The translations under genes were made by a program, and so were the position numbers. 64,000 nt of DNA from Pseudomonas alcaliphila JAB1 (GTDB lineage: Bacteria > Pseudomonadota > Gammaproteobacteria > Pseudomonadales > Pseudomonadaceae): contig NZ_CP016162.1 of the NCBI RefSeq assembly GCF_001941865.1, positions 744,001 to 808,000 of the forward strand, in the 5' to 3' direction. The notes below the pieces were generated by a model. It saw only the letters and a list, made by a program, of their open reading frames with translations. It ran no database searches and was not told the DNA's origin. Shown here piece after piece: positions 3,523 to 62,671 of this stretch; position 1 is the first letter of the stretch; each line of letters opens with the position of its first letter.

Positions 3523-4395
3523 ATGCCCATCCTGCAACGTGCATCTCATCATGAGCTACGCAGTGCCTTTCGTGCCCTGCTGGCTTCCGACCGCTGCTAC
3601 CACACGGCTTCGGTCTTCGACCCCATGTCCGCCCGCATCGCCGCCGATCTCGACTTCGAGGTCGGTATCCTCGGTGGCTCCGTCGCCTCCCTGCAGGTAC
3701 TCGGTGCGCCGGACTTCGCCCTGATCACTCTCAGCGAATTCGTCGAGCAGGCCGCACGCATTGGCCGCGTCTCGCGTTTGCCGGTGATCGCCGATGCCGA
3801 CCACGGCTACGGTAATGCGCTCAATGTGATGCGCACCGTGGTCGAGCTGGAACGCGCCGGCGTCGCCGCGCTGACCATCGAAGATACCCTGCTGCCGGCC
3901 CAGTTCGGTCGCAAGTCCACCGACCTGATCTCCATCGAGGAAGGCGTCGGCAAGATCCTCGCTGCGCTGGAGGCGCGTGTCGATCCGGAGCTCTCGATCA
4001 TCGCCCGTACCCATGCCGGCGTACTGGAGGTGGACGAAGTGATCCGCCGCACTCGCGCCTATGAGGCTGCCGGCGCCGACGGCATCTGCCTGGTCGGGAT
4101 CAAGGATTTCGCCCACCTGGAGCAGATCGCCGCAGGCCTCAAGGTGCCGCTGATGCTGGTCACCTACGGCAACCCCGAACTGCGCGACAACCAACGCCTG
4201 GCGCGCCTGGGCGTGCGCATCGTGGTCAACGGCCATGCTGCCTACTTCGCCGCGATCAAGGCCACCTACGACTGCCTGCGCGAACAGCGCGGTGCCCAGC
4301 CGTGCGACCTCAACGCCACCGAGCTGACCCACAAGTACACCATGCCCGAGGATTACATCCTCTGGGCCAAGGAGTTCATGGAAGTGCGCGAATAA
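3523..4395 (+). CDS. Oxaloacetate decarboxylase (PEP mutase/isocitrate lyase superfamily)
   Basis: 290 residues from the ATG at 3523; the open frame extends further upstream but encodes unrelated, non-conserved residues. The protein has the alpha/beta-barrel of the isocitrate lyase/PEP mutase superfamily: [14 protein letters not shown] near the N-terminus, the metal-binding [15 protein letters not shown] strand, and [16 protein letters not shown]. It lacks the KKCGH loop of isocitrate lyase. It matches the P. aeruginosa PA4872 type, which was characterised as a Mg-dependent, biotin-independent oxaloacetate decarboxylase giving pyruvate and CO2. It is cytosolic. The neighbourhood (urease genes a few kb away) is the same as in P. 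aeruginosa as I remember it. Confidence 0.87.
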
Positions 4396-16560: not shown

Positions 16561-16652
16561 TCCCCTCTCCCGCTTGCGGGAGAGGGGCGGGGGAGAGGGT
16601 TTGCTGCCATTCTTGCCCTCTCCCCAGCCCTCTCCCATAAATGGGAGAGGGG
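16561..16652. repeat. Family D palindrome, inverted doublet
   Basis: Forward unit CCCCTCTCCCGCTTGCGGG-AGAGGGG followed by GGGGGAGAGGG, then after a short spacer the same unit inverted, ending ATAAATGGGAGAGG. Each unit is a strong hairpin with a GGGAGAGGG tail. It lies between the convergent MocR and aminotransferase genes and could also end both transcripts. It has no GTAG end. Confidence 0.85.
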
Positions 16653-48993: not shown

Positions 48994-49020
48994 ACAGGCC
49001 GCTTGCGGCTAGCTGATGTC

Positions 49021-49112
49021 CCTCTCCCATTTATGGGAGACGACTGCATGGATGCAGGAGGTAGGGCGACGCAGGATGCCCAAGCCGAGGGTGCCCGAAG
49101 GGCGGGAGAGGG
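49021..49112. repeat. Family D palindrome with internal insertion
   Basis: CCTCTCCC-ATTTAT-GGGAGA hairpin, then about 65 bases beginning CGACTGCATGGATGCAGG, then the closing GGGAGAGGG. The same plan as at 16561 and 60050, with the tail displaced. Confidence 0.7.
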
Positions 49113-60049: not shown

Positions 60050-60165
60050 GACCCTCTCCCCAACCCTCTCCCATGAATGGGAGAGGGGGCTGATCGTGAA
60101 CAGCTTCGGTCGCGCGTCGAACTTCTCCCCTCTCCCGCTTGCGGGAGAGGGGCTGGGGGAGAGGG
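60050..60165. repeat. Family D palindrome, inverted doublet upstream of the DUF559 gene
   Basis: ACCCTCTCCCCAACCCTCTC, CCATGAATGGGAGAGGG, then 35 bases, then CCCCTCTCCCGCTTGCGGG and the GGCTGGGGGAGAGGG tail. Two opposed units as at 16561. It follows the magD stop codon at once and ends 22 bases before the DUF559 ATG. Confidence 0.88.
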
Positions 60166-60187
60166 CAAAAAGGTTCAAGGAGGAACC

Positions 60188-60285
60188 ATGACCTTACTCG
60201 ACCACGCCAAACGCCTTCGCCATGAGATGACTGATGCCGAGCAACGGCTCTGGTATTACCTGCGTGCTCACCGCTTCCTAGGCCT
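60188..60285 (+). pseudogene. DUF559 endonuclease-like protein, 5' part (disrupted by IS66)
   Basis: Starts at the ATG at 60188 after a strong AAGGAGG site and encodes MTLLDHAKRLRHEMTDAEQ, then RLWYYLRAHRFLG before the IS begins. The segment is the classic N-terminus of DUF559 proteins. Translation would end a few codons inside the IS (stop at 60287-60289). The 98 bases here plus the 247 bases at 62350-62596 make 345 bases, exactly 115 codons, so the gene was intact before insertion. Confidence 0.9.
60278..60285. repeat. 8-bp target site duplication, left copy
   Basis: CTAGGCCT directly before the IS66 left end; the same eight bases follow the right end at 62342-62349. Eight bases is the rule for IS66-family elements. 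Confidence 0.93.
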
Positions 60286-60327
60286 GTAAGCGCTCCATAA
60301 ACCCCGTCCTGGCGGACGGGTTTGTTT

Positions 60328-61881
60328 TCAGGAAGCAGAGGCAGAAGCTGGCGAGCAGTTCCACGGCAGCAGCGCTTCGTAGTCTTCGACGCTCTGTGCC
60401 GCAGGCAGGCGTTCAAGGATGTGGCGCAGCCAGGCGTAGGGCTCCTGCCCGTTGGCTTTCGCGGTTTCGATCAGGCTGTAGATCTGCGCGCTGGCCGTGG
60501 CACCCTTGGGCGTGTCGCTGAACAGCCAATTCTTGCGGCCGATGACGAACGGTCGGATGGCGTTCTCGGCGCGGTTGTTGTCGATCGGTAGATGCCCACC
60601 TTCGATGTAGCGCACCAGCCTGCTCCAGTTGCTGGCCAGGTAGTTCACCGCCTTGCCCAGGGCCGTCTGCCCAGCGACCTGCGACTGGGTTTTGTCCAGC
60701 CAGGCCTTGAGTTGGTCGAGCAGCGGCTGGCTGCGTTGCTGGCGGGCGGCCAGGCGTTCGCTGTCGTCGACCTCTTTAAGATCGCGCTCGATGCCGTAAA
60801 GCTTGTTGATCAGGTTCAGCGCCATGTCGGCACGGCCGGTCTTGCCCTTGGGCTGCACTTTCTGCGCCTCGACGAACTTGCGCCGCGCATGCGCCCAGCA
60901 GGCCAACCGCTCGATGCCGTCGCGTGCAGCCACGGCGTTGTAGCCGGCGTAGTCGTCGGTCATCAGGTAGCCGCGGTAGCCATCGAGCAGGCGTAGCGGC
61001 ACCTCCTGCGCACGGCTGGCTGTGTAGTCGAAAAGGATCACCGGCTTGTCCGGCGGCCCACCGCTTTGCACCCACATCCAGGATTGTGCCGAGGGGTCGC
61101 GTCCCAGTTCATGCAGCACCTGCAGACGCGTTTCGTCGCAGTGCAACACGGGGTATTCGAACAGTTTGTCGCGCATCAGGTTGAGCAGCGGTTGCAGTTG
61201 CTCGCCACTTTGGATCACCCAACGCGCCAGGGTCTGCCGTGGGATGTCGACGCCGTGGCGGCTGAGCATCCTCTCGAAGCGGTACAGCGGGATGCCGTCG
61301 GCGTACTTGGTGGTCAGCAGCATCGCCAATACGCTGGGGCTGGCCAGGCTCTTCTCGATCAGTTGTGCCGGCTTGTCGGCGGTGACCGGCGCGGTTTCAC
61401 AGGCCTTGCAGGCGTAGGTCTTGCGGATGTGGCGGATGACCCGCACCTGCATCGGGATGATCTCCAGCTGCTCGCTGGTCTCTTCACCGATGACCTGTTT
61501 GCAGGCGCCGCAGGCGCAGGTCAGTTCGTGCTCGGGCAGCTCATGGATGACCTCCACACGCGGCAGGTTGGCCGGCAGCGGCTTGCGTTTGCCACGGCGC
61601 TTGACCGGCGCAACGACTTCTTCGGCTTCGGCTTCGGCTGGCTCGGCGGCCAGCGCTTCGATCAGCTCTTCGGCCTCGTTGAACATGGCCAACTGCGGTG
61701 AGTCGGCATCTTCAGGGCTGCGCTCGGACTTAGGCGAGAACAGCTTGTGGCGCAGCAGGGCGACCTGTTCCTGAAGTTGTTCTATGCGAGCATCTTTCGC
61801 AGCCGCCTGTTCACTGGCCAGCAGCAGTAAATGCTTGAGCAGGATTGGGTCGTCAGGAAGGGACTCGGGCACGGCGATCAT
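60328..61881 (-). CDS. tnpC: IS66 transposase TnpC
   Basis: 517 residues. Leucine-zipper-like N-terminus (about 10-50: [25 protein letters not shown] in outline), a zinc-finger region with Cys122/124/127 and Cys158/161, and a DDE catalytic core with Asp249 (HCDETRL), Asp309 or Asp310 (MTDDYAGY) and Glu439 ([11 protein letters not shown]). The C-terminal IS66 segment ([25 protein letters not shown]) is complete. It is the active transposase of the element. Confidence 0.95.
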
Positions 61882-61900
61882 GGCCGTGGATTATACCGGC

Positions 61901-62260
61901 TCAGGTTACGAAGCGCGGCGTCAGTATCTGGTGCGGGCGATTACGCCACAGGTCGATGCCGTCGAGCAGCCAGTTCAACTCATCGACCGTCAGCTCAATG
62001 GCCTCGTCACCGGCATCGGGTTTGGTCTTGAAGCGCTCGGCTTCCAGACGCTTGAGCCACAGGCAGAAGCCATTGCGCTCCCAGTAGAGAATCTTGACCT
62101 GGCTGCGGGTGCGATTGAGGAACACGAACAGCACCGGGTTGAACACTTCCACCTTGATGTCCAGCTCGACCAGCGCCGCCAGGCCATTGATGGATTTGCG
62201 GAAGTCGACAGGCTTGGGATACAGATAAACCTTTTGGACCTTGGCGTCGGGACGCATCAT
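61901..62260 (-). CDS. tnpB: IS66 accessory protein TnpB
   Basis: 119 residues of the IS66 Orf2 family: VYLYPKPVDFRKSINGLAALVE, FNPVLFVFLNRTRSQVKILYWERNGFCLWLKRLE. Needed with TnpC for IS66 transposition by an unknown mechanism; it is unrelated to the TnpB nucleases of IS605. It starts at the ATG at 62260 or the adjacent one at 62257. Confidence 0.94.
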   Translation of the reverse strand: MMRPDAKVQKVYLYPKPVDFRKSINGLAALVELDIKVEVFNPVLFVFLNRTRSQVKILYWERNGFCLWLKRLEAERFKTKPDAGDEAIELTVDELNWLLDGIDLWRNRPHQILTPRFVT

Positions 62261-62341
62261 GGGATGAACTCCAGAGAAAACAGGAGTTCAGCATCCGCTG
62301 ATCTGCGGGCTATAGGCAGGTGGGGTTTATGGAGCGCTTAC

Positions 62342-62349
62342 CTAGGCCT
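62342..62349. repeat. 8-bp target site duplication, right copy
   Basis: CTAGGCCT, matching 60278-60285. Confidence 0.93.
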
Positions 62350-62596
62350 GAAGTTCAAACGGCAGAAACCCATTGGCCCCTATATCGTCGATTTCATCTG
62401 CACTGAACGTTGGCTCGTCATCGAGCTGGACGGTGGGCAGCATCAGTTGCAGACGGAATACGATCAACAACGTGAGCGTTATCTGGAGACTCGAGGCTAT
62501 CGTGTGCTGCGTTTCTGGAATCATCAGGTACTGGCTGAAACGGAGGCTGTACTTGAACAGATTCGTCTTGAAATTGGCGAGCAAGATGGCTTATGA
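62350..62596 (+). pseudogene. DUF559 endonuclease-like protein, 3' part
   Basis: Continues the frame after the duplicated CTA GGC CT: LKFKRQKPIGPYIVDFIC, then ERWLVIELDGGQH, RERYLETRGYRVLRFWN and EAVLEQIRLEIG. The PYIVDF-x-ERWLVIELDGGQH pattern (D, E-x-D/G) resembles the PD-(D/E)XK/Vsr nuclease core that defines DUF559. No start codon of its own is evident, so it is probably silent unless the IS excises. Confidence 0.9.
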
Positions 62597-62630
62597 GCGT
62601 CGCCGCGAGTCTTGGCATAACGTTGATCCG

Positions 62631-62671
62631 CTCCCCTCTCCCATTTATGGGAGAGGGGTTGGGGGAGAGGG
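62631..62671. repeat. Family D palindrome, single unit before pbpC
   Basis: CTCCCCTCTCCCATTTATGG, GAGAGGGG and the GGGGGAGAGGG tail. It starts 34 bases after the DUF559 stop and ends 6 bases before the pbpC ATG, so its purine-rich tail forms the pbpC ribosome-binding site. Confidence 0.85.

Follow-up and report, generated by a model that had tools for sequence, protein, structure and literature searches.

Palindromic units bracket DUF559 genes in Pseudomonas alcaliphila JAB1 and in other bacteria, and probably form mobile cassettes with them

Introduction

Why does a small gene with a nuclease-like product stand between copies of a palindromic repeat, and could that product be the enzyme that spreads them? 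The question is raised by a 64-kb stretch of the Pseudomonas alcaliphila JAB1 genome (contig NZ_CP016162.1, positions 744,001 to 808,000; hereafter the window, with its features numbered from its first base), which at 60050–62671 carries a gene of the DUF559 family (PF04480) and, on either side of it, hairpin units named family D. A preliminary description of the window likened this arrangement to that of RAYT (REP-associated tyrosine transposase) genes and their repetitive extragenic palindromic (REP) sequences, and proposed a functional link between DUF559 and the repeat.

To judge from its sequence, family D is the intrastrand-triplex or PIT repeat (TM) of Holder et al. 2015 (PMC4666352), a widespread palindromic repeat of bacteria that is present in Escherichia coli K-12, has been studied as triplex DNA and had, according to passages of that paper, no known source in 2015. 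Here we describe a well-supported genomic partnership between DUF559 genes and such palindromic units. Gene and palindromes together are likely to be a mobile cassette, and the best single reading, which we favour on balance, is that the DUF559 nuclease acts on the units and moves them.

Results

The DUF559 gene of the window is bracketed by hairpin units, each with CCCTCTCCC/GGGAGAGGG arms and then a GGGAGAGGG tail. The window contains 17 copies of CCCTCTCCC, where shuffles lead one to expect 0.72. As the preliminary description had it, the units lie on both sides of the gene, with a doublet 22 bases ahead of the ATG. The outer member of the doublet (60052–60087, minus strand, tail on the left) and the inner member (60128–60165, plus strand, tail towards the gene) match the hairpin and tail pattern, the outer one exactly, and so does the downstream unit (62634–62671, plus strand). 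The last begins 37 bases, rather than the 34 first given, past the stop codon at 62594–62596.

The gene, which starts at 60188, is not the single reading frame that it had been taken for. An IS66-type insertion sequence (IS) at about 60286–62341, on the minus strand and with ends GTAAGCGCTCC and GGAGCGCTTAC assigned by reading, interrupts it after about 33 codons, leaving a 5′ piece at 60188–60285 (plus strand; PF04480, 1.2e-6 over 33 amino acids) and a 3′ piece at 62342–62596 (plus strand; PF04480, 8.5e-32), each searched separately and not joined. Pfam places tnpC at 60328–61881 (DDE_Tnp_IS66, 1.5e-105) and tnpB at 61901–62260 (TnpB_IS66, 1.9e-35) inside the element, and an 8-bp target duplication, CTAGGCCT, can be read at 60278–60285 and 62342–62349. 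In three congeners (L194, L195 and L197) similar units flank an IS-free gene with an open frame of 114 codons; CTAGGCCT is single in L197, with base changes at that spot in L194 and L195. A second DUF559 gene of strain JAB1, found with PF04480 at 2149334–2149639 of the genome, is intact and has one unit on each side, so that both DUF559 genes of the genome are bracketed. The 5.34-Mb genome holds 54 hairpins and 43 strict units, and at the density of the latter a given gene would have a strict unit within 300 bp by chance in about 0.7% of cases.

Enrichment of the repeat beside DUF559 genes, the comparison over many genomes that the preliminary description had proposed, is strongly positive. 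PF04480 matches are present in 60 of 185 genomes drawn from Gammaproteobacteria, and 51 of the 52 best matches (to E 2.6e-30) were sampled, the split gene of the window and all weaker matches being excluded. Scanning 300 bp around each gene for CCCTCNCCC, with up to three mismatches allowed, places a unit beside 32 of the 51 genes and on both sides of 25. The nearest upstream unit is on the plus strand in 24 of 29 cases and the nearest downstream unit on the minus strand in 23 of 28, and the unit tails therefore usually point towards the gene. Many of the other 19 loci have brackets of the same architecture with a different sequence, for example CCCCCTTT...AAAGGGGGATTGAGGGGGATTT. A motif-free test, in which the upstream 300 bp were aligned to the reverse complement of the downstream 300 bp and the threshold was set at the 99th percentile of shuffles, finds inverted brackets at 42 of the 51 DUF559 loci, as against none of 30 Vsr-gene loci from the same genome set, a control weakened because some Vsr-bearing genomes are without any strict unit. 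For 22 of the 51 genes the nearest strict unit is no more than 300 bp away, where the genomes' own unit densities predict 0.27 such genes.

The same bracketing is found beyond the class. A species-genome scan gave 80 named loci, a non-random sample selected for similarity to a single DUF559 protein; two were too short, and of the 48 that passed among the other 78, L103 did so on a run of N and was dropped. The bracket test was passed by 47 of the 77 scored loci, from many phyla, and by 6 of 140 sham genes set into these loci as controls. Those passing include loci of Planctomycetota (L093), Chloroflexi (L152), Nitrospirales (L125), Aminicenantes (L126), Gastranaerophilales (L141), Daviesbacteria (L143) and Rickettsiales (L097); the Dadabacteria locus L112 failed.

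Repeat and gene also vary together. Strict units are present in 30 of 41 genomes with a strong DUF559 match (E<1e-15) but in only 22 of the 144 others, among which are 19 genomes with weak matches only (odds ratio 15, p 5e-12, with genomes treated as independent). Over 89 loci, bracket similarity rises with protein identity (rho 0.32, reached in 0 of 2000 permutations). Bracket classes, defined by motifs set after the sequences had been viewed and leaving 2 of the 89 loci in no class, cluster on the DUF559 tree, in which 53 of 86 forks are open: they require 23 changes, against a mean of 36.6 when shuffled (0 of 200 shuffles). Three of the four genomes with a clade C gene (L032, L078, L082, L084) have strict type-C units, compared with 10 of the 181 others (p 0.001). 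At the genomic level, the proposed link between DUF559 and the repeat is thus supported by enrichment, by the association in presence and by brackets whose sequence varies with the phylogeny of the gene.

Several observations point to mobility. The yfhM|pbpC site, where the cassette of the window lies, holds a DUF559 cassette in three congeners and none in L196, and in L198 (congener G192) it is occupied by a RAYT gene (NF047646, 958–1407) between other palindromes. One genome, G032, has three loci with a cassette of about 0.5 kb and inverted ends of about 80 bp; L016 and L071 are 97.8% identical over 408 bp, L071 and L072 98.3% over 534 bp, and L016 and L072 88.9% over 638 bp. Comparisons of congeners and strains turned up no empty cassette site whose flanks are well conserved.

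At 14 of 131 loci the open frame that contains DUF559 also takes in part of another gene. The survey covered stop-free frames of more than 300 codons, and 5 of its 19 long frames (L022, L087, L093, L110, L125), with other sequence on no more than one side, are uncounted. The hosts are valS (L099, L157), mfd (L097), priA (L165), a GHMP kinase gene (L141), an M14 peptidase gene (L142, L161), hsdS (L034, L037, L077), hsdM (L075, L083) and N6/N4-methylase genes (L020, L085); the names hsdM, hsdS, priA, mfd and ispE were read from Pfam matches and sequence. Four cases, L097, L099, L157 and L165 (valS twice, priA and mfd), have host domains by Pfam both before and after DUF559. The far side of the other cases was judged from translation, that of L037 from a second Methylase_S stretch of unstated position, and the frame of L083 stops just past DUF559. 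Host sequence resumes on either side of the insert in L157, compared with ValS (1gax), and in L165, compared with PriA (4nl4). The valS gene of L099, from Rickettsiales, also contains a solo unit in frame, at 4322–4357. No intein family is among the Pfam matches of the 14 cases (E<=1e-5). Some DUF559 proteins, L076, L029 and L126 among them, have C-terminal tails like SPxPLPxGEG that look as if a bracket unit had been translated, so the annotated C terminus may belong to the repeat.

The preliminary description also listed two gene-less doublets elsewhere in the window. That at 16561–16652 is indeed a doublet, by pattern match, of opposed units at 16563–16599 (plus strand) and 16616–16651 (minus strand), and it is missing from that site in the close congeners L233 and L234, where other palindromes stand. 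The other proves to be one unit (49020–49112, plus strand) with extra sequence within the 3′ arm of its hairpin, as comparison with congeners indicates; its counterpart in L237 is without that sequence. A second small hairpin stands between stem and tail in this unit and in L237–L239, and the extra stem sequence is present in the window and in some congeners.

Discussion

The fold predicted for the DUF559 protein is similar to those of 3hrl, a homing endonuclease and Vsr, by which it appears to be a small Vsr/EDxHD-type PD-(D/E)XK nuclease, in keeping with the core ascribed to it beforehand. Pfam matches in L001 and L009 are limited to DUF559 and the REase model MTES_1575, with no HUH tyrosine transposase and no recognised transposase among them. 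The system thus differs from an insertion sequence in lacking a recognised transposase, although its inverted brackets, like the long inverted ends in G032, recall terminal inverted repeats. It shares a Vsr-like fold, as predicted, with Vsr and the EDxHD homing endonuclease I-Bth0305I, but is a free-standing cassette between palindromes, with no intein family in the in-frame cases. Rickettsia palindromic elements likewise lie in frame inside genes (PMC10969869), but they are about 150 bp long and the passages of that paper describing them mention no nuclease gene, whereas the DUF559 cassette encodes one.

RAYT genes co-vary with their repeats. The parallel with RAYT and REP drawn in the preliminary description is a close one. 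In both systems inverted palindromic units stand on either side of the gene, pair up in opposed doublets and recur as solo copies elsewhere and inside genes (the last reported for REP; PMC3733652), and at the yfhM|pbpC site a RAYT takes the place of the cassette. The enzymes differ, that of DUF559 being PD-(D/E)XK (PF04480) and RAYT a tyrosine transposase; DUF559 units have a third purine arm; and no GTAG or CGTC tag can be read at the foot of the palindromes in the window, the lack of GTAG having been noted before. The best reading is that the DUF559 system works like RAYT/REP without being a member.

The closest match for the units themselves is the PIT/TM repeat, a CCCTC(T/G)CCC hairpin with a GGG(A/T)GAGGG tail that forms inverted doublets, as family D does (PMC4666352). 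The hairpin of the window units has CCCTCNCCC arms and leads into a GGGNGAGGG tail, and the unit and hairpin counts of strain JAB1 agree with the many dispersed copies typical of PIT/TM; units of the other sequence classes have only architecture in common with it. The E. coli motif folds as an intrastrand triplex in vitro, and the passages of Holder et al. on its surroundings report no mobility genes near the repeat and give no gene partner (PMC4666352). The present data supply DUF559 as a partner and extend the architecture to further sequence classes. E. coli ycjD is itself a DUF559 gene, and the repeat at Holder site 9 lies 167 bp past its stop codon, with a degenerate hairpin in between, a proximity with a chance of about 0.3% for one gene. 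A ycjD match occurs in 3365 of 5426 complete E. coli genomes. ATCC 25922, the sole genome without ycjD that was opened, has an efflux operon between fabI and sapF, described as eefRABCD replacing ycjD (PMC12817139). Both MG1655 and O157 have the hrpB-mrcB doublet, three other strains lack it and one more has a reduced form, from which we conclude that units come and go. In E. coli ETEC6 (NZ_CP041627.1) an IS1 lies in the ycjD region and DUF559 is annotated in two pieces. YcjD, of the same protein family as VsrA of Caulobacter, was placed among PD-(D/E)XK members by 2005, with no repeat link in the passages describing it (PMC1189080), and no report linking DUF559 with these repeats was found in the open-access PMC literature.

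If the DUF559 nuclease does move the units, the mobile element would be about 0.45–0.55 kb long and consist of unit, gene and unit, the units often doubled. The protein would recognise the extruded or single-stranded unit, with its hairpin and third purine arm, and nick or cut there; the freed end would then be copied or joined into new sites through replication or repair. Solo units and doublets may be non-autonomous derivatives moved in trans. Recognition, cutting, strand transfer and the movement of solo units by DUF559 are in this sense the putative steps of the model.

A number of observations weigh against this model. The dependence of repeat on gene holds in part: strict units are associated with DUF559, but G045 (30 strict units), G047 (44), G082 (22) and G093 (47) are unit-rich with no DUF559 and no clear remnant of it. 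In G047 the housekeeping gene dapB stands between opposed units; strict type-C units number 116 in G177, where DUF559 has no match, and 31 in G009, where the DUF559 gene has a different bracket. Nine of the 51 gammaproteobacterial loci do not pass the bracket test, class D (6 loci) is the only bracket class not clustered on the tree, the downstream unit of the window is oriented away from the usual direction, and the units of the in-frame cassettes L157, L165, L141 and L161 are reversed. Neither a target duplication nor exact insertion ends were found for the cassette. Co-variation could come from linkage alone, through joint inheritance of a linked unit, with no need for recognition, and VsrA, the DUF559 protein of Caulobacter, is a predicted mismatch-repair enzyme (PMC12907096).

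Next to the reading in which DUF559 moves the units stands homing, which we think unlikely: a free-standing DUF559 endonuclease would cut gene-less units, and repair would copy the gene in, with the units as homology arms and spreading by other means. Homing would leave linkage as the only source of gene-repeat co-variation, and it requires a separate spreader of units, whereas 9 open reading frames beside or between units in G045, G047 and G082, a small sample, include no nuclease or transposase by Pfam. Linkage could equally explain co-variation if DUF559 genes were inert passengers riding between fragile triplex-type units that recombine often. In E. coli the surroundings of the units are reported to vary strongly (Holder et al., PMC4666352), and in Legionella recombination is reported between hotspot pairs that include DUF559 segments (PMC12308824); both are consistent with this, but one gene family is bracketed across phyla where Vsr genes are not (0 of 30) and in-locus sham genes rarely are (6 of 140), and units of another sequence class accompany another DUF559 clade; we regard the passenger explanation as distinctly improbable.

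It is very doubtful that DUF559 is simply a Vsr-like housekeeping repair enzyme with the units as its terminators or regulators. The Caulobacter work on VsrA would suit such a role (PMC12907096), and the Enterobacter sp. 638 authors presumed a role of the palindromes in transcription termination (PMC2869309), but the brackets are inverted on both sides, units are translated in frame within other genes, and presence varies. Chance neighbourhood in a repeat-rich genome, for which the 43 strict units of strain JAB1 might speak, is refuted by the bracket counts (42/51 against 0/30; 47/77 against 6/140), by the 22 genes with a nearby strict unit where 0.27 were expected, and by bracketing in many genera and phyla.

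More tentatively, and at somewhat less than even likelihood, DUF559/YcjD may found a separate class of mobile element, in which a lone PD-(D/E)XK nuclease acts on folded DNA and thereby moves both itself and a superfamily of triplex-type palindromes, in several bacterial phyla and with in-frame insertion even into essential genes. If true, this would account for the origin of the PIT/triplex repeats of E. coli, pseudomonads and others. A gene partner would give DUF559/YcjD a function, would make the spread of the repeat testable in a laboratory strain, and would show an enzyme unrelated to RAYT in the same kind of gene-palindrome partnership, even at the same genomic site in one genus. Gene and repeats as one mobile element would supply a puzzling class of bacterial repeats with a likely source.
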